The translations under genes were made by a program, and so were the position numbers. Below are positions 1,447 through 51,388 of a DNA stretch of 64,000 bases, piece after piece; the stretch's first letter is position 1, and each line of letters opens with the position of its first letter. The notes below the pieces were generated by a model. It was not told where the DNA came from. It made no database searches and saw only the letters and a list, made by a program, of their open reading frames with translations. Source of the DNA: an uncultured Spartobacteria bacterium (lineage in GTDB: Bacteria; Verrucomicrobiota; Verrucomicrobiia; Chthoniobacterales; Chthoniobacteraceae); contig CAIZLD010000045.1 of the NCBI GenBank assembly GCA_903933715.1, forward strand, positions 1 to 64,000, in the 5' to 3' direction.

Positions 1447-2154
1447 TTAGTTGGAATGCATCCTCACCCAAAAGTGATGAATGCAAATTTTGCCACCGCC
1501 ACCCGAGTTATTTCTTGAGTTTAACGAAACGCAGCACGCTGTTTGAGTTCCGTTCTCTTCAGCGAAGCGTTCCAACACCTCATCTAATTCCCACTTTTCC
1601 TCACCGGTTGGCTTCGCTTCAACGAGTTCACGAATCCATTGGTTAAGGCGGTCATACCATTGACGCAGGGAATCTTTCTGAATGTACCCAATCATCACGG
1701 CTGTCTCCAACTGTCCTCCATGCAGTCCCAGTTTGAACCGTTGAATTCCGCCCGTTACGTCTTTCCCCCCGGTCAGATATTCCCGTTCTCTTGTTTTACC
1801 ACCGGGAGGAGGAAGACGCTTTCCTTCGAAAACAAGAAACGGGTCATCTATTGTGTGATAAGTCGCCCCAACGAATCCGTCTTCGGTTAATCCTGCTGAA
1901 ATATCTACGCGTCGTCCCTTGGCTTGCTTTTCCTCGTGATGAAACATGACCATCTGAAAGTTCTTGCGGGCGCGTGAATTCAGATGCTTGCAGAGTTGAG
2001 CGTTAAGGCTTTCCTCGGCAATTTCGGTTCGCCTCTTTGGGCGATCCCGCCATTGCGGTAACTCATTTTGCACGAATGCCAGAGTCTTTTTTACCTGTGC
2101 ATTTACTTCCGGGCCGTGCGTCAGCCGACCTTGGCTTTGAAATTTTGAGGTCAC
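1447..2154 (-). CDS. Putative restriction endonuclease partner (PD-(D/E)xK-like)
   Basis: A 235-residue protein beginning with GTG one base after the stop of the adenine methylase, so the two are almost certainly co-translated. Around residues 85-115 the sequence has RVDIS, then a DDPFLVFEGKRL segment. An acidic residue followed by E-x-K is the pattern of PD-(D/E)xK nucleases. The tail is rich in Gly, Cys and His (CVSLNSRNNSGGGGKICIHHF), which could bind metal. Proposed role: the cleaving partner of the methylase at 2156-4996. The assignment rests on the short motif and on the operon, not on overall similarity that I recognise. Confidence 0.5.
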   Translation of the reverse strand: MTSKFQSQGRLTHGPEVNAQVKKTLAFVQNELPQWRDRPKRRTEIAEESLNAQLCKHLNSRARKNFQMVMFHHEEKQAKGRRVDISAGLTEDGFVGATYHTIDDPFLVFEGKRLPPPGGKTREREYLTGGKDVTGGIQRFKLGLHGGQLETAVMIGYIQKDSLRQWYDRLNQWIRELVEAKPTGEEKWELDEVLERFAEENGTQTACCVSLNSRNNSGGGGKICIHHFWVRMHSN

Positions 2155-14662: not shown

Positions 14663-14668
14663 ATGCTC

Positions 14669-14935
14669 TAAGCTGAATCGACATTCAAAAGCCGCCGCAA
14701 CCCGAAGGGTTGCCAGCAAATAGCCGGTGGTTGAGCGGAGCGACACCACCGGTTCAATGCAAAACCGCGACTCACCCCCAAAGGGGTGGCAGAGACCATC
14801 GCCTCGTTTTCTGTCCCCCCCCTTTGGGGTGAATTCTTTCAAACACCTCATCCGGTGGTGTCGCTAACGCTCAACCACCGGCTATGGGCTTCAAATCCCT
14901 TGGGTTTGGCTCAATCTGAATGTCGATTCAGCTTA
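14669..14935. repeat. Palindromic element family 1, copy A
   Basis: About 267 bases with perfectly inverted ends; GCTCTAAGCTGAATCG and on to ACATTCA (14665-14687) is matched exactly, inverted, at 14917-14939. The interior has nested inverted stems built on GCCGGTGGTTGAGC/ACACCACCGG and CACCCC/GGGGTG. TA flanks both ends. It sits between the convergent PEP-CTERM and ilvB genes. Same orientation as copy B, opposite to C and D. Confidence 0.9.
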
Positions 14936-14988
14936 GAGCAACTGCCAAAAGAATTTTCCGGATAAAGATGCGAGCGCCACGGGCTCCC

Positions 14989-23699: not shown

Positions 23700-23730
23700 T
23701 GATCGCGCCCGGAGGGGTTGCGATCCACCC
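23700..23730. repeat. Repeat family 2, partial copy after gspK
   Basis: GATCGCGCCCGGAGGGGTTGC and on to GATCCACCC matches the outer part of the full family-2 repeats at 28222 and 51265. It starts 11 bases after the gspK stop, in the convergent gap with the peroxiredoxin gene, and forms a short hairpin. Confidence 0.7.
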
Positions 23731-27073: not shown

Positions 27074-27108
27074 TTCCGATCGCGCCCGGAGCAAGGCGCG
27101 ATGCACGG
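27074..27108. repeat. Repeat family 2, partial copy after etfA
   Basis: TTCCGATCGCGCCCGGAGCAAG followed by GCGCGATGCACGGA matches the outer arm of family 2, beginning 7 bases after the etfA stop. A small hairpin precedes the true terminator at 27141. Confidence 0.65.
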
Positions 27109-28221: not shown

Positions 28222-28337
28222 AGGAAGAGCAGAGCAGCATGGATGGATCGGCCGCTCCGCGGGCGATTTTGGGACGGGGCGTGGTTGGAGAAGTGGCGAG
28301 CCCTTCCCGATCGCGCCCGGAGGTCGCGATCCACCTT
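28222..28337. repeat. Repeat family 2, full copy after atpC
   Basis: About 116 bases, the inverted equivalent of 51265-51388: both contain GGTGGATCGCGACCTCCGGG, CTCCAACCACG and GGAGCGG-CGATCCA in the same order. It starts 3 bases beyond the atpC stop. The outer arms (GGATCG / CGATCC) can pair, closing a branched hairpin. Confidence 0.85.
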
Positions 28338-28754: not shown

Positions 28755-28769
28755 ATTCTATCGATTTTA

Positions 28770-28864
28770 TCCGCAGATTTCGCAGATTAACGCAGATTCC
28801 GGAAAGGAATAGGGGGACTTCAAGCCTCTTTTTTAATCTGCGAAAATCGGCGCAATCTGCGGAT
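28770..28864. repeat. ATCTGCG word-repeat palindrome between atpD and atpC
   Basis: CCGCAGATTTCGCAGATTAACG and on to CAGATT at about 28771-28798 is answered by AATCTGCG, GGCGCAATCTGCGGATT at 28834-28864. The arms are repeated copies of one word and can form a long hairpin within the atp transcript, just upstream of atpC. Confidence 0.75.
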
Positions 28865-28894
28865 TCTCTTCTGTTTTTAATTCGTGGATTTCGT

Positions 28895-30470
<1,576 letters not shown>

Positions 30471-30476
30471 TCCTCC

Positions 30477-31358
30477 CTATCCCAGCGCCATTTGCGCGGT
30501 GGAGATTTCGAGGAGTTCGGTGGTGATGCTGGCCTGGCGCACTTTGTTGTATTCCAAGGTGAGGTCTTTGATCAATTGCAAGGCGTTGTCGGTGGCGTTC
30601 TTCATGGCGACCATCCGGGCGCTGTGCTCGGAGGCCCGGGCGTCCAACACCATCTGGTAAATCTGAAAATGCAGATAATGGGGCAGGATGCTTCCCAACA
30701 GTTCCATCGGGCTCGGCTCGTAAAGATAATCGTTCTGGTCGAGCGTTTCGGCGAGCTGCCCGGCCTCGCTTTTTTCACCTTTGGCGGGAAGTTCGAACGG
30801 GCTGATCGGGAGCAGCGTGCGAATGGTCGGCGTTTGGGTGAGCGTGTTGACGAATTTGGTGTAGAGAATGGTGACTTTATCGACCTTCCCGCTCAGGAAT
30901 TGGTCGATGCAGTATTTGGAAATAAGCTTGGTATCCCGCAATGCCGGGGCATCGGGCAGCGGGAAATCGGCATCGAGTTTGCGCCGGAGCCGGGCGAGGT
31001 GCTGCTGGGCTTTGCGGCCGCTGGAGACAAAGTCGGTCTGGAATTCGTCAAAGGCGGTGGCCTCGCGCAGGAGGTTCGTGTTCAATGCGCCGCAGAGTCC
31101 CTTGTCTGTCGAGATGACGACGACCAGCTCCCGCTTGAGGGGGCGCACCGCAAGCAGCGGGTGCAGGGTGACGTCGGCGTGCTTGCGGACGTCCACGAGC
31201 ACTTTGTTGATCAGTTCCGAATACGGCCGCCCGGCCATTGCCGCGCCTTGCGCCTTGCGCATTTTGGCAGAGGCGACCATCTGCATCGCTTTGGTGATCT
31301 GCGATGTGTTCTTGATCGACTTGATCCGTCGCCGGATGTCTCGGGTGTTAGCGGCCAT
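30477..31358 (-). CDS. atpG: ATP synthase gamma subunit
   Basis: A 293-residue central rotor shaft. The N-terminal helix ANTRDIRRRIKSIKNTSQITKAMQMVA and the C-terminal helix EHSARMVAMKNATDNALQLI...YNKVRQASITTELLEI form the coiled coil; VVVISTDKGLCGALN is the conserved Rossmann-like segment. Normal length. In operon order after atpA. Confidence 0.97.
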   Translation of the reverse strand: MAANTRDIRRRIKSIKNTSQITKAMQMVASAKMRKAQGAAMAGRPYSELINKVLVDVRKHADVTLHPLLAVRPLKRELVVVISTDKGLCGALNTNLLREATAFDEFQTDFVSSGRKAQQHLARLRRKLDADFPLPDAPALRDTKLISKYCIDQFLSGKVDKVTILYTKFVNTLTQTPTIRTLLPISPFELPAKGEKSEAGQLAETLDQNDYLYEPSPMELLGSILPHYLHFQIYQMVLDARASEHSARMVAMKNATDNALQLIKDLTLEYNKVRQASITTELLEISTAQMALG

Positions 31359-31370
31359 TTTGAAGAAAAA

Positions 31371-31520
31371 TTATAGAGGGGTGAGAGGATAGACTATAGA
31401 AGCCGTCCTTTGCTCGGGCGTTGTGGCGCTTCGGGGCGTTAGATAGTGGAAAGTGGCCATGTTTGGGATTCAGGCGAGGCAGCGTGTCTATAATCTATAG
31501 TCTCACCCCTCTATAGTCTT
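31371..31520. repeat. atp-operon repeat family 3, copy atpA-atpG
   Basis: About 150 bases: TTATAGAGGGGTGAGAGGATAG..., central GGCGCTTCGGGGCGTTAG, then GCGTGTCTATAATCTATAG and CTCACCCCTCTATAGTC. The outer ends are close inverted repeats, so a long stem can form. Second of three copies in successive atp gaps. Confidence 0.88.
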
Positions 31521-31525
31521 TATTC

Positions 31526-33052
31526 CTACCTCCAGGTCGATTTGAATTCGACCAGGGTGGAAGCCAGTTCGTCGTTGAGTTCTTTGCTGATCGACCCGGC
31601 CACGATGATTTTGTCGAGCAACGCCCGTTTGCGCGTGGTCAGGAATTCTTGCAGCTTGGCTTGCATCTCTTTGATCCGGTCCACCGGGACGTCGTCCATA
31701 TGGCCGTTCTGGATGGCCCACAAGATGGCGACCTGCTCCTCGATCGCGATCGGGTTGTATTGGCGTTGTTTGAAAAGTTCGACGATGCGCGAGCCGCGGT
31801 CGAGCTTGGCTTTGGTACCGGCGTCGAGGTCGCTGCCGAACTGGGCGAAGGCGGCCAGTTCGCGGAACTGGGCGAGATCGCCCTTGATCTTCCCGGCGAC
31901 TTGCTTGATCGCCTTGATCTGCGCGGCGCTGCCGACACGGCTGACCGAGAGGCCGACGGAAATGGCCGGGCGCACCCCTTGGTAGAACAGGTCGGTTTCC
32001 AAATAAATCTGGCCGTCTGTAATCGAGATGACGTTGGTCGGAATGTAAGCGGAAACGTCACCCGCCTGCGTTTCGATGATCGGCAACGCGGTGAGCGAGC
32101 CGTTGCCGTTCTTCTCGTCCACGCGCGCGGAACGCTCCAGCAAACGGCTGTGGAGATAAAAGACGTCGCCCGGATACGCTTCGCGGCCGGAGGGGCGCTT
32201 CAAGAGGAGCGAGACTTGCCGGTAGGCGACGGCGTGCTTGGAGAGGTCGTCGAAAATGATCAGCGCGTCCATGCCGTTGTCCATGAACCATTCCCCCATG
32301 GCCGCCCCCGCGAACGGGGCTAGGTATTGATTGGTGGCGGAATCGGAAGCGGAAGCGTTGACGATGATGGTGTATTCCATCGCGCCGGTTTCCTGAAGCA
32401 CGCCGATGGTGCGGGCGATGTTGGAGTTCTTCTGGCCGACGGCGACGTAGATGCTGTAAATGGGGCGGAACCCGGCCTTGCCCAAATTGGCTTTGTTGAT
32501 GCGGGCCTGGTTGATCATCGTGTCGATGGCGATGGTGGTCTTGCCGGTGGCCCGGTCGCCGATAATCAATTCGCGCTGGCCGCGTCCGATCGGAATCATC
32601 GCGTCGATCCCCATGATGCCGGTCTGCACCGGCTGGTTGACTCCCTTGCGCTTGATGATGCCGGGGGCGATTTTTTCGACCGGATAGAGGACGTCGGACT
32701 GGATTGGCCCTTTGCCGTCGAGCGGCTGCCCAAGGGCATCGACAACGCGCCCAAGCAACCCTTTGCCGACGGGGACCGAAAGCAGGCGGCCGGTGGTTTT
32801 GACGATGTCCCCTTCCTTCACGGCGTTGGCGTCGCCCATCAGAATGCAGCCGACTTCGTTTTCTTCGAGGTTGAGCGCCAGCCCGTAAAGCCCGCCCGGG
32901 AACTCGATCATTTCGTTGAGCATCACTTCGCTCAACCCTTCGATTTTGGCCACGCCGTCGCCCGATTCACGGACAACCCCGGTGTTGGTCTGAACGGTCG
33001 TGGTCTTGAGACCGGCGATTTGGGATTCGATTTCTTGCAGAATGGTGCTCAT
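31526..33052 (-). CDS. atpA: ATP synthase alpha subunit
   Basis: A 508-residue F1 alpha subunit. Walker A GDRATGKT, the VGQKNSNIA segment, [17 protein letters not shown], and the [32 protein letters not shown] region containing the arginine finger are intact. The non-catalytic nucleotide sites are as usual. A family-3 repeat lies on each side. Confidence 0.98.
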
Positions 33053-33065
33053 GGGAAAAAAGAAG

Positions 33066-33216
33066 ATGATAGAGGGAGAAGACTATAGAGGTCGGTCGTT
33101 ACTCGGGTATTGATTGGCGCTTCGGGGCGTTAACTGATGGGAAAAGGTCTTTTTCGGGGTTGGATTTCAGGCGAGGCAGCGTGTCTATAATCTATAGTCT
33201 CACCCCTCTATAGTCT
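33066..33216. repeat. atp-operon repeat family 3, copy atpH-atpA
   Basis: About 151 bases with GATAGAGGGAGAAGACTATAG at one end, GGCGCTTCGGGGCGTTAA in the middle, and GCGTGTCTATAATCTATAGTC / CACCCCTCTATAGTCT at the other. It directly abuts the atpH stop (33219). Confidence 0.88.
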
Positions 33217-33218
33217 GT

Positions 33219-33611
33219 TCACAGCCTGCTGCGCAGCAGTTCCAGGCGTCCGCGGATGCTGCCGTCCCAGACGTTGCTGCCGAGCTGGATGCGCAGGCCG
33301 CCAATCAGCTCGGGAATGACTTTGAATTCGTGGGTAATATCTGTTCCAAAGCGGGCCTGCAAATCGGCGGTGATCTCGGCGGCGGCGGCCCCGTCGAGCG
33401 GGACGGCGCTGGCGATCACGGCGTGGCGGCGGGCCAGTTCCAGGCGTACGAGCCGCTCGTAATTTTTCAGAACGCTGATCGTGTGGCGCGGTTTGCGGGC
33501 CGCGACTTCCTGCAATACGGCGCTGATCCGGGCGCGGTCGAGCCGTCCGCCGGTGAAGCTGGCGCGGAAGAGGGAGCGGGAAAGTTTGCGGGCTTCCTTG
33601 GGGATTTTCAT
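33219..33611 (-). CDS. atpH: ATP synthase delta subunit, short form
   Basis: F1 delta (OSCP-like), which links F1 to the b-subunit stalk. It is 130 residues; usual members have about 175-180. The C-terminal signature IGGLRIQLGSNVWDGSIRGRLELL is clear, and the N-terminus begins in the usual style (ARKLSRSLFRAS), so the loss of about 45 residues falls inside the N-terminal helical domain. The start is fixed by the atpF stop only 10 bases upstream. It may be a compact natural variant, not a fragment, as the frame is intact and the operon complete. Confidence 0.9.
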   Translation of the reverse strand: MKIPKEARKLSRSLFRASFTGGRLDRARISAVLQEVAARKPRHTISVLKNYERLVRLELARRHAVIASAVPLDGAAAAEITADLQARFGTDITHEFKVIPELIGGLRIQLGSNVWDGSIRGRLELLRSRL

Positions 33612-37087: not shown

Positions 37088-37804
37088 ATGAAGCCCGTTC
37101 TTTTTTCCCTGCTGGCACTGGTTTTGAGCGTCGTGGCGGGGGTTGCTTCGCAGCAGCCCGCGATTTCCCCCAACCATGAATACGTCATTCTCAGTGGCGG
37201 CCCGTCGCTGCTGCTTTGGGAGAAATGGAAGAACCCGCCCCACGACAAATGGTGGCTCAATTTCATCCGGGCGGCGGAAATCCGCATCAGGCAGTTGGAA
37301 AACGAGGGGGTTGCGCCGGGGCAGATCACCTGGATGGTTTACCGGCCTTCTTATGAAACGCGTTCCAAACAGGAGGGGCAGAACTGCACCGCCGCGATTT
37401 CCGCCTTAAGCCAAAGCCTCGGCTGCAAACTGAAATTTTTTAGCAACACCCGCGAGGTCATTGCGCATCTCAATGCCGGTAAACCGCGCGAGAGCGTCAA
37501 AATCGCCGACTTCGAATATTTCGGCCATTCCAACAAGGCGTGCTGGCTTTTCGATTACTCCAACCAGATCGACAGCGCCTCCAAGGTGTGGCTGCACGAA
37601 GACGAGCTCGGCCAGATCAACCCGGGCATTTTTGCCAAAAACGCCTACGTCAAAAGCTGGGGCTGCCATACCGGCGAGAGCATGAGCCGGAAATTCCGGA
37701 GTGCAAGCGGCCTCAAAATGTGGGGAGCCACCGGGCGCACCCAATACATGACCGAGGAGTTGCCGGTCCTGGCCTCTCCGGGAGCGAGCAAGTGGAAGTA
37801 TTAG
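37088..37804 (+). CDS. Exported protein with possible His-Cys (caspase-like) dyad
   Basis: A 238-residue protein with a signal peptide (MKPVLFSLLALVLSVVAGVAS). The distinctive part is EYFGHSNKACWLF (His near 156) followed about 50 residues later by KSWGCHTGESMS (Cys near 195). A β-strand ending in GH and a later β-strand ending in C is the layout of clan CD (caspase, gingipain, CHAT) peptidases. That is inference from spacing and motifs, not a recognised family. The gene's TAG stop (37802-37804) overlaps the first three bases of palindromic element copy B. Confidence 0.8.
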   Translation: MKPVLFSLLALVLSVVAGVASQQPAISPNHEYVILSGGPSLLLWEKWKNPPHDKWWLNFIRAAEIRIRQLENEGVAPGQITWMVYRPSYETRSKQEGQNCTAAISALSQSLGCKLKFFSNTREVIAHLNAGKPRESVKIADFEYFGHSNKACWLFDYSNQIDSASKVWLHEDELGQINPGIFAKNAYVKSWGCHTGESMSRKFRSASGLKMWGATGRTQYMTEELPVLASPGASKWKY

Positions 37805-38064
37805 GCTGAATCGACATTCAAAAGCCTCCGCAACCCGGAGGGTTGCCAGCGAATAGCCGGTGGTTGAGCGAAGCGACACCACCGGATGAGGTGTTGGAAG
37901 AATTCACCCCAAAGGGGTGGCAGAGCCATCGCCTCGTTTTCTGCCACCCCTTTGGGGTGAGGCGCGGTTTTGCATTGAACCGGTGGTGTCGCTTCGCTCA
38001 ACCACCGGCTATGGGCTTCAAACCCTTTGGGTTTGGGACTCGATCTGAATGTCGATTCAGCCTA
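37802..38064. repeat. Palindromic element family 1, copy B
   Basis: 263 bases from TAGGCTGAATCGACATTCA to its exact inverse TGAATGTCGATTCAGCCTA. Interior stems: GCCGGTGGTTGAGCGAAGCG paired with its inverse, and CACCCCAAAGGGGTGG twice in opposite orientation. It fills the convergent gap completely: its first three bases are the stop of the upstream plus-strand gene, and its last base is 5 bases from the stop of the entericidin-like gene. Confidence 0.93.
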
Positions 38065-38069
38065 GCCCG

Positions 38070-38213
38070 TCACTCCGGGGTGCACCATTCCGCCGCGCGC
38101 TGGATTCCGCTGCCCATGCTTTGGAAATCCTGGCCGACCCCCTTCAGGGTGCCACATGAAGAGAACGCCAGCATTACGATCAAAGCGAGTCCCATTAAGA
38201 GGATTGGTTTCAT
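38070..38213 (-). CDS. Entericidin-like small lipoprotein
   Basis: A 47-residue protein. From ATG at 38213: MKPILLMGLALIVMLAFSSC, a lipoprotein signal ending in a Cys, then GTLKGVGQDFQSMGSGIQRAAE. Entericidin A/B proteins share this size, the lipobox and a short amphipathic GxGxDxQxxG helix. It should be a lipid-anchored, possibly membrane-active peptide; in Enterobacteria the pair acts as a toxin-antidote in stationary phase. Only one is seen here. It follows the lipoprotein gene by 36 bases. Confidence 0.82.
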   Translation of the reverse strand: MKPILLMGLALIVMLAFSSCGTLKGVGQDFQSMGSGIQRAAEWCTPE

Positions 38214-39519: not shown

Positions 39520-40383
39520 ATGGGCGTTGAAGATACAGATTCCGGCATCAAAATTTATCTCCGTGAAATCGGCCAAATTGCCCTTCTGACCCCCGAACAG
39601 GAGATCGAACTGGCTGCCCGCATCAAGAAGGGGGACAAAGAGGCCCGCAGCCTGATGATCCGGGCAAACTTGCGGCTGGTCGTCAAGATTGCGCACGATT
39701 ACGCCAACCTTGGCCTGCCGTTGCTCGACCTCATCTCCGAAGGCAATATCGGTTTGATGAAAGCCGTCGAACGTTTCGACCCGGCCAAAGGGGGGAAATT
39801 AAGCACTTATGCGGCTTGGTGGATCAAGCAATCGATCAAACGCGCGCTGGCCAATCAGAGTAAAACCATCCGCTTGCCGGTGCATCTGGTTGATAAAATT
39901 TCTAAAATGCGTCGGGTTTCCATTCAAATGAGCGAGGAACTCGGGCGCGAACCGACTGACGAGGAGCTCGCTGAAGAGGTGGGGCTTTCAAGCGTCAAAG
40001 TTTCGCATTTAAAAACCGTGGCGATCCGGCCCGCGTCGCTGGACGCGCCGATCAGCGACGACGATTCCACCGCCTTTGGCGAGATCGTCGGGGATGAGGA
40101 TGCGCTGACTCCGTTTGAATTGTTGCGCGACAAAAATCTACAGAACGAAATGGACGATTTGATTGCCGTGCTCGATGACCGGGAAAAGAAAATCATCTTT
40201 TCCCGGTTCGGGCTCGACGGCGGCAAACCGCGCACGCTCGAAGAGGTGGGGAAGAAATTTGGGGTCACGCGGGAGCGCATCCGGCAGTTGCAAAACATCG
40301 CGCTTTCCAAGCTCCGCCGCGCGCTCCAGAAGCTGGAACGCCCCGCCCTGCGAACGTTGATCGGCGGCCGGGAAGAGGAATAG
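39520..40383 (+). CDS. RNA polymerase sigma factor, RpoD/RpoS-like (no region 1.1)
   Basis: A 287-residue sigma-70 family protein from ATG at 39520 (MGVEDTDSGIKIYLREIG); a TTG at 39511 is an alternative. Regions: 1.2 (IYLREIGQIALLTPEQE), 2 (LRLVVKIAHDYANLGLPLLDLISEGNIGLMKAVERFDP and YAAWWIKQSIKRAL), 3 (MSEELGREPTDEELA), and 4 (RTLEEVGKKFGVTRERIRQLQNIALSKLRRAL). The missing acidic 1.1 region and short length suggest a group 2 or compact primary factor. Its TAG stop overlaps the first bases of palindromic element copy C. Confidence 0.95.
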   Translation: MGVEDTDSGIKIYLREIGQIALLTPEQEIELAARIKKGDKEARSLMIRANLRLVVKIAHDYANLGLPLLDLISEGNIGLMKAVERFDPAKGGKLSTYAAWWIKQSIKRALANQSKTIRLPVHLVDKISKMRRVSIQMSEELGREPTDEELAEEVGLSSVKVSHLKTVAIRPASLDAPISDDDSTAFGEIVGDEDALTPFELLRDKNLQNEMDDLIAVLDDREKKIIFSRFGLDGGKPRTLEEVGKKFGVTRERIRQLQNIALSKLRRALQKLERPALRTLIGGREEE

Positions 40384-40645
40384 GCTGAATCGATATTCAG
40401 ATCGAGCCAAACCCAAAGGGTTTGAAGCCCATAGCCGGTGGTTGAGCGTTAGCGACACCACCGGTTCAATACAAAACCGCGCCTCACCCCTAAAGGGGTG
40501 GCAGAAAACGAGGCGATGGCTCTGCCACCCCTTTGGGGTGAATTCTTTTCAACACCTCATCCGGTGGTGTCGCTAACGCTCAACCACCGGCTATTCGCTG
40601 GCAACCCTCCGGGTTGCGGCGGCTTTTGAATGTCGATTCAGCCTA
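40381..40645. repeat. Palindromic element family 1, copy C
   Basis: 265 bases from TAGGCTGAATCGATATTCAG to the inverse end TGAATGTCGATTCAGCCTA, in the opposite orientation to A and B. It supplies the TAG stop of the sigma factor gene and lies in the convergent gap with acnA. Confidence 0.92.
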
Positions 40646-40660
40646 GAGCAACTGCGCCGC

Positions 40661-43630: not shown

Positions 43631-44014
43631 TAAGAAGCCAGGAATCCAGGAAAGGAGAAACCCCACGTCAATGGTCGTTTTTTGCTCCAACGGATCACTA
43701 GGCTGAATCGACATTCAGATCGAGCCAAACCCAAAGGGTTTGAAGCCCATAGCCGGTGGTTCAGCGGTAGCGACACCACCGGTTCAATGCAAAACCGCGC
43801 CTCACCCCTAAAGGGGTGGCAGAAAACGAGGCGATGGCTCTGCCACCCCTTGGGGGTGATTTCTTTTCAACACCTCATCCGGTGGTGTCGCTAACGCTCA
43901 ACCACCGGCTATTCGCTGGCAACCCTCCGGGTTGCGGCGGCTTTTCAATGTGATTCAGCTTAATCCATCCACTTAAGCTCCTCTTCTGCTTTTCCTGGCT
44001 TCCTAATTAAAATC
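43631..44014. repeat. Interrupted AAGCCAGGAA palindrome around copy D
   Basis: TAAGAAGCCAGGAATCCAGG and AAAGGAG (43631-43657) is answered by CTCCTCTTCTGCTTTTCCTG, GCTTCCTAATTA at about 43979-44010, its approximate inverse. The two arms belong to one word-repeat palindrome; element copy D sits between them, so it looks like an insertion into an older repeat. Confidence 0.65.
43699..43962. repeat. Palindromic element family 1, copy D
   Basis: 264 bases from TAGGCTGAATCGACATTCAG to a decayed end TCAATGTGATTCAGCTTA (one base lost, others changed). Same orientation as C. It lies upstream of acnA and downstream of the DUF393 gene, both on the minus strand; unlike the other copies, it is not in a convergent gap. 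Confidence 0.9.
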
Positions 44015-51264: not shown

Positions 51265-51388
51265 AGGTGGATCGCGACCTCCGGGCGCGATCGGAAATGG
51301 GTTAGCCATGTCTCCAACCACGCGCCGTCCCAAATCACCCGAGGAGCGGTCGATCCACCTGGGGTTTCCTGCACTCCTGCTCTGTTCC
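51265..51388. repeat. Repeat family 2, full copy after mlaA
   Basis: About 124 bases beginning AGGTGGATCGCGACCTCCGG, passing CTCCAACCACGCGCCGTCCC and GGAGCGGTCGATCCACCT, ending CACTCCTGCTCTGTTCC. It is the mate of 28222-28337 in opposite orientation and begins at the base after the mlaA TAA. Confidence 0.87.

Follow-up and report, generated by a model that had tools for sequence, protein, structure and literature searches.

A probable GTGG-tagged REP/REPIN family behind genes of an uncultured Spartobacteria bacterium

The repeat that stands directly behind the mlaA and atpC genes in this stretch of DNA (the window, 64 000 nucleotides of an uncultured Spartobacteria bacterium) raises the question of what accounts for its presence there. 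An earlier note, made from the sequence alone, had proposed a standard 3′-untranslated module that always begins within 11 bases of a stop codon and on the same strand relative to the gene each time. We conclude, with high confidence, that it represents a family of REPs with a GTGG tag, usually found as a REPIN, consisting of two inverted REP hairpins and a spacer of about 42 nt.

Structure of the repeat and its copies in the window

The repeat is 94 bp long, and its inverted ends, A (GGTGG followed by ATCGCGACCTCCGGGCGCGAT) and B (GGTGG followed by ATCGACCGCTCCGCGGGCGAT), are the two main versions of the unit and face each other across the spacer with their heads outward. In each unit GGTGG is followed by an imperfect hairpin in which the triloop is TCC and one stem position (A.G) is usually unpaired. 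The spacer adds complementarity, so that one long hairpin can also form from the doublet as a whole. Both of the full copies described previously are present (Table 1), and the genes ahead of them have matches to the MlaA and AtpC domains in Pfam; the 20-mer given in the earlier note occurs exactly twice in the window, where 0.02 occurrences are expected, and the element behind mlaA ends at 51359 and not at 51388. The two partial copies placed at 23700 and 27074 also exist, but they lie in convergent gaps and are reversed, with their GGTGG ends pointing away from gspK and etfA and facing the minus-strand neighbours. A search of the window with Rfam covariance models returned two tRNAs only and no match to the repeat.

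Table 1. Copies of the repeat in the window, and RAYT genes flanked by units of the same family in related genomes
Feature	Position	Strand	Remarks
Full REP doublet (REPIN-like) after mlaA	51266..51359	+	94 bp, A> 42-nt spacer <B; starts 1 nt past the mlaA TAA stop
REP unit A (GGTGG + ATCGCGACCTCCGGGCGCGAT)	51266..51291	+	Exact consensus; 54 genome matches at <=3 mismatches, control 0
REP unit B	51334..51359	-	GGTGGATCGACCGCTCCTCGGGTGAT; 2 mismatches vs consensus
Full REP doublet after atpC	28242..28335	-	B> 42-nt spacer <A on + strand; 5 nt past the atpC stop on - strand
Single A-type unit, 2-nt insertion	23700..23729	-	Between convergent gspK and peroxiredoxin gene; reversed vs gspK
Decayed single unit, degenerate head	about 27078..27106	-	Between convergent etfA and RRM-protein gene; reversed vs etfA
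RAYT gene, G001 C62 (L260)	ORF 1650-2096		Between full doublet and B unit; NF047646 77 bits
RAYT gene, G038 C1 (L244)	ORF 1717-2127		Flanking units with AACGCG stems; NF047646 47.8 bits
RAYT gene, G054 C15 (L263)			Flanked on either side by inverted A units, stems ATGGCG/CGCCAT; NF047646 80.5 bits

Several other repeats are found in the window. A family beginning CCGGTGGTGTCGCT is located at 14664–14945, 37802–38074, 40381–40655 and 43699–43951 and matches the inverted repeats that flank a Y1 transposase gene elsewhere in the same genome (contig C67, L009), so that this family too is, by sequence similarity, likely to be transposase-linked. A third repeat, beginning ATTTCGCAGATTAACGCAGATT, lies at 28764–28890 in the gap between atpD and atpC and has dozens of matches in the congeners G001 and G002. 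Repeats with TCTATAATCTATAGTCTCACCCCTCTATAGTC are present at three places around the atp genes, at 30316–33241, and a 45 bp part of them also matches the locus of the RAYT gene of the same genome (L280).

Copies across the genome and their position relative to genes

The genome (2.8 Mb) contains 105 units in 70 clusters. With up to three mismatches allowed, end A gives the number of matches shown in Table 1 and end B gives 38, and a control scan of the same genome with the reversed pattern gave none. Two-unit clusters number 27, of which 20 have their heads outward, and their spacers are mostly 34–46 nt long; single units make up about half of the clusters, and several of these keep spacer remnants. 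Singlets show no greater divergence than clustered units (0.90 and 1.30 mismatches per unit respectively), although more diverged singlets would be predicted, if not required, in a REPIN family. Sixty-five of the clusters are intergenic, three are at contig edges and two were called inside ORFs; for at least one of these two (L050) the apparent location inside a gene was rejected, as it is due to a spurious upstream (shadow) extension of the ORF. One cluster (L051:2508–2747) holds a 13 bp tandem array (TGCGCGATCCACC) that is derived from the end of a unit.

Elements of 94 bp with inverted ends might also be MITEs of a DDE transposon, with GGTGGATCG as the terminal inverted repeats and a DDE transposase as the mover, but the large share of single ends, the covarying hairpin that each end forms on its own, and the finding that the sole transposase detected between such ends is of the Y1/RAYT type (see below) led us to reject this origin. 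No consistent target duplication was seen by eye, nor did a search reveal any gene family that recurs beside the copies, and we regard a DDE-type MITE as the least probable of the explanations considered, with next to no chance of being correct.

Genes were called with a home-made hexamer gene finder. Of the 65 clusters that could be placed relative to them, 43 fall in gaps between tandem genes, 16 between convergent genes and 6 between divergent genes. The corresponding numbers of background gaps are 79, 21 and 31, and divergent gaps are depleted for copies (Fisher, p = 0.02). In the tandem class, copies lie a median of 30 nt from the stop codon as opposed to 98 nt from the start codon (Wilcoxon, p = 5 × 10−4), although 15 tandem copies are no nearer to the stop than to the start. 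Copies no more than 11 nt from a stop number 17 of 65, against the 11.5 ± 2.5 expected with uniform placement in the same gaps, and tandem-gap copies alone account for 13 of these against 6.3 expected. The preference for 3′ ends is genuine, though moderate, a tendency and not a rule. Orientation is mixed, with 39 copies GGTGG-first and 20 in reverse. The genome-wide search and tabulation that the earlier note had suggested thus bears it out in that the repeat is multicopy and biased towards gene ends, and a majority of copies upstream of or inside genes, the distribution named there as contrary to its proposal, was not seen; the constant strand and the invariable proximity to stop codons are not upheld. 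In six clusters that abut a stop, the stop is TA|G with its G drawn from GGTGG, and it appears that a well-placed head can supply this base; for GTAG REPs, the REP ends have been reported as a source of TAG stops (PMC3733652).

Orthologous gene ends, stem covariation and RAYT genes in relatives

No copy was found at the orthologous gene ends of congeners for atpC (0 of 4), mlaA (0 of 4) or etfA (0 of 3), nor in the gspK/peroxiredoxin gap as viewed from the peroxiredoxin end (0 of 3); synteny is only partly preserved, and the comparison is one of gene ends and not of whole intergenic gaps. At the mlaA end of G002 there are instead copies from two other repeat families. For copies whose flanks match loci of relatives, no shared position was noticed in a non-systematic inspection of the match coordinates. 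Copy positions turn over between congeners, and the empty orthologous sites argue against a conserved 3′-UTR module.

Such a module, selected at particular genes for termination, mRNA stabilization or protein binding, would account for the 3′ bias of the copies and for an RNA hairpin that is stronger than in shuffled sequences (z = −2.8), although this value is for the strand opposite to the atpC mRNA in an element that is near-palindromic as a whole; in E. coli, REPs in 3′ UTRs do affect mRNA stability. It would not account for the mixed orientation or the copies in divergent gaps, nor was an intrinsic terminator (a G+C hairpin followed by a T-run in the mRNA sense) found at the element in scans around both full copies. 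Moreover, RAYT genes in relatives are flanked by the same hairpins, and the data are therefore better explained by a mobile element whose distribution is biased by insertion or by selection. The central proposal of the earlier note is thus highly improbable.

The hairpin was examined in 54 distinct units from this genome and other records, nearly all of them from Verrucomicrobiota. The pattern with which they were collected fixed GGTGG and TCC and left the pairing free, so that the invariance of head and loop in this alignment is by construction and the pairing is not. Each of the eight stem pairs has cells in which both partners have changed, and 92.8 % of the cells are paired compared with 72.4 % in shuffles. 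There are 66 doubly changed cells as against 13.3 in shuffles, a number that none of 500 shuffles reached, and the covariation score is 0.49 compared with 0.12; shifting the pairing partners by one to three columns abolishes the signal. Mismatch-tolerant scans give a similar picture, in that the GGTGG head is kept in nearly all matches and the stems change as pairs, with variants such as AACGCG/CGCGTT in G009, G025, G035 and G038 and ATGGCG/CGCCAT in G054. The relatives in which the pattern occurs belong to Chthoniobacterales/Spartobacteria or are other Verrucomicrobia MAGs. The hairpin structure is under selection or recognition.

In three of these relatives (G001, G038 and G054), one belonging to the same genus and two to the same order, a RAYT gene is flanked by units of the GGTGG-hairpin family, and the flanking hairpins are in each case a stem variant of that same genome (Table 1). 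Compared with the G001 query, the G038 protein has 48 % and the G054 protein 57 % identity, and the scores listed are to be read against a cut-off of 80 bits for NF047646 (REP-associated tyrosine transposase); the cognate RAYTs are among the weak matches to PF01797. The upstream unit of the G038 gene is truncated by the end of the contig, which lies near to that gene. Four Y1/RAYT-type genes (three matching PF01797 and one NF047646) are present in the genome under study, the assembly of which is 97 % complete in 77 contigs, but all four are flanked by other repeats and none by the GGTGG-hairpin family. Its copies therefore seem to be orphans, or else to depend on a gene that the assembly lacks; the cognate RAYT would have been lost or left unassembled, or else the copies are moved by something else. 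Since it is absent from the assembly, the copies are probably a remnant population, or one moved by an unassembled gene. We note that a homologous RAYT in the congener G002 (contig C23, L264) has an unrelated REP doublet (GGTAGGGACGGCACTCCGTGCCGTCC) at its flanks, so that the repeat partner differs within the genus.

The repeat agrees with a REP/REPIN family on every structural test made: a short palindrome behind a GTAG-type tetranucleotide (the GGTGG head and its covarying hairpin of eight pairs), many extragenic copies, inverted doublets with a preferred spacing, turnover of positions, and a RAYT flanked by its own REP, the last of these in the three relatives and not in the genome itself. 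By analogy with other REP–RAYT pairs, the RAYT, an HUH/Y1 transposase, would recognize the single-stranded GTGG head and hairpin, cut beside the hairpin and then move or copy the doublet; the basis for such recognition and mobilization is work in E. coli, Stenotrophomonas and Marinomonas (PMC8266576). Selection may then purge insertions in coding sequences and promoters, leaving copies that survive, or land, behind genes and so giving rise to the 3′ bias. An effect of some copies at the post-transcriptional level is possible. It is rather unlikely, though compatible with a REP/REPIN origin, that a subset of the 3′ copies has secondarily acquired a role in the processing of transcript ends or the control of decay; the excess of tandem-gap copies close to stop codons and the effects of this sort shown by published REPs speak for it, but no window copy is conserved between congeners, and purifying selection against promoter and gene insertions yields a similar bias.

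The identification of the repeat as a transposase-linked REP family, with the transposase found in relatives, bars its annotation as a conserved 3′-UTR regulatory module. The natural stem variants with a fixed head and loop, some of them beside their own RAYT, constitute a ready substrate set for RAYT recognition, and the genome itself provides an example of a REP population that apparently lacks its transposase. We give equal weight to the truth and falsity of a broader proposition, namely that REP–RAYT pairing in Verrucomicrobiota combines a fixed head and loop with compensated stem swaps between species and a RAYT beside its own stem version, together with a genome of about 70 clusters, many with near-identical hairpins, that lacks a detectable cognate RAYT. 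If it is true, both stem-specificity switching and the persistence of REPs after RAYT loss would be directly testable.

Comparison with known REP systems

Published REPs are palindromes of 20–50 nt behind GTAG and are intergenic (PMC8266576). The repeat shares with the E. coli REP/TnpA-REP system (PMC8266576) a hairpin with mismatched stem positions behind a GTAG-type tetranucleotide and the occurrence of BIME-like pairs, but it has a GTGG head, a TCC loop and an unrelated stem, and about 105 units compared with about 600 REPs in E. coli. The REPINs of Pseudomonas fluorescens SBW25 (Bertels & Rainey, 2011; PMC3116915) are likewise inverted extragenic REP doublets with a preferred spacing that form a long hairpin and are associated with a RAYT. 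The family described here differs from them in its head and stem and in its far fewer copies; in SBW25 the singlets are more diverged, which is not so here, and no flanked cognate RAYT is present in this genome.

The GTAG-20 REPs of Opitutus terrae (2013; PMC3733652) are also from Verrucomicrobiota, have a head that is mostly GTGG and show a bias towards unidirectional and convergent locations, and some units are inside uvrA in both cases, O. terrae uvrA genes interrupted by REPs having been reported; the two are likened by description and not by consensus sequence. In two other Verrucomicrobia MAGs (L161:3735 and L172:2039) the unit lies in frame within a UvrA-domain ORF and encodes GGSRPPGA, at nearly the same place (residues 611 and 619) in ORFs of 1905 and 1972 aa respectively. 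The repeat is thus a new family of a known kind, GTGG-headed REPs having already been reported in this phylum in O. terrae, to which it is likened by description.
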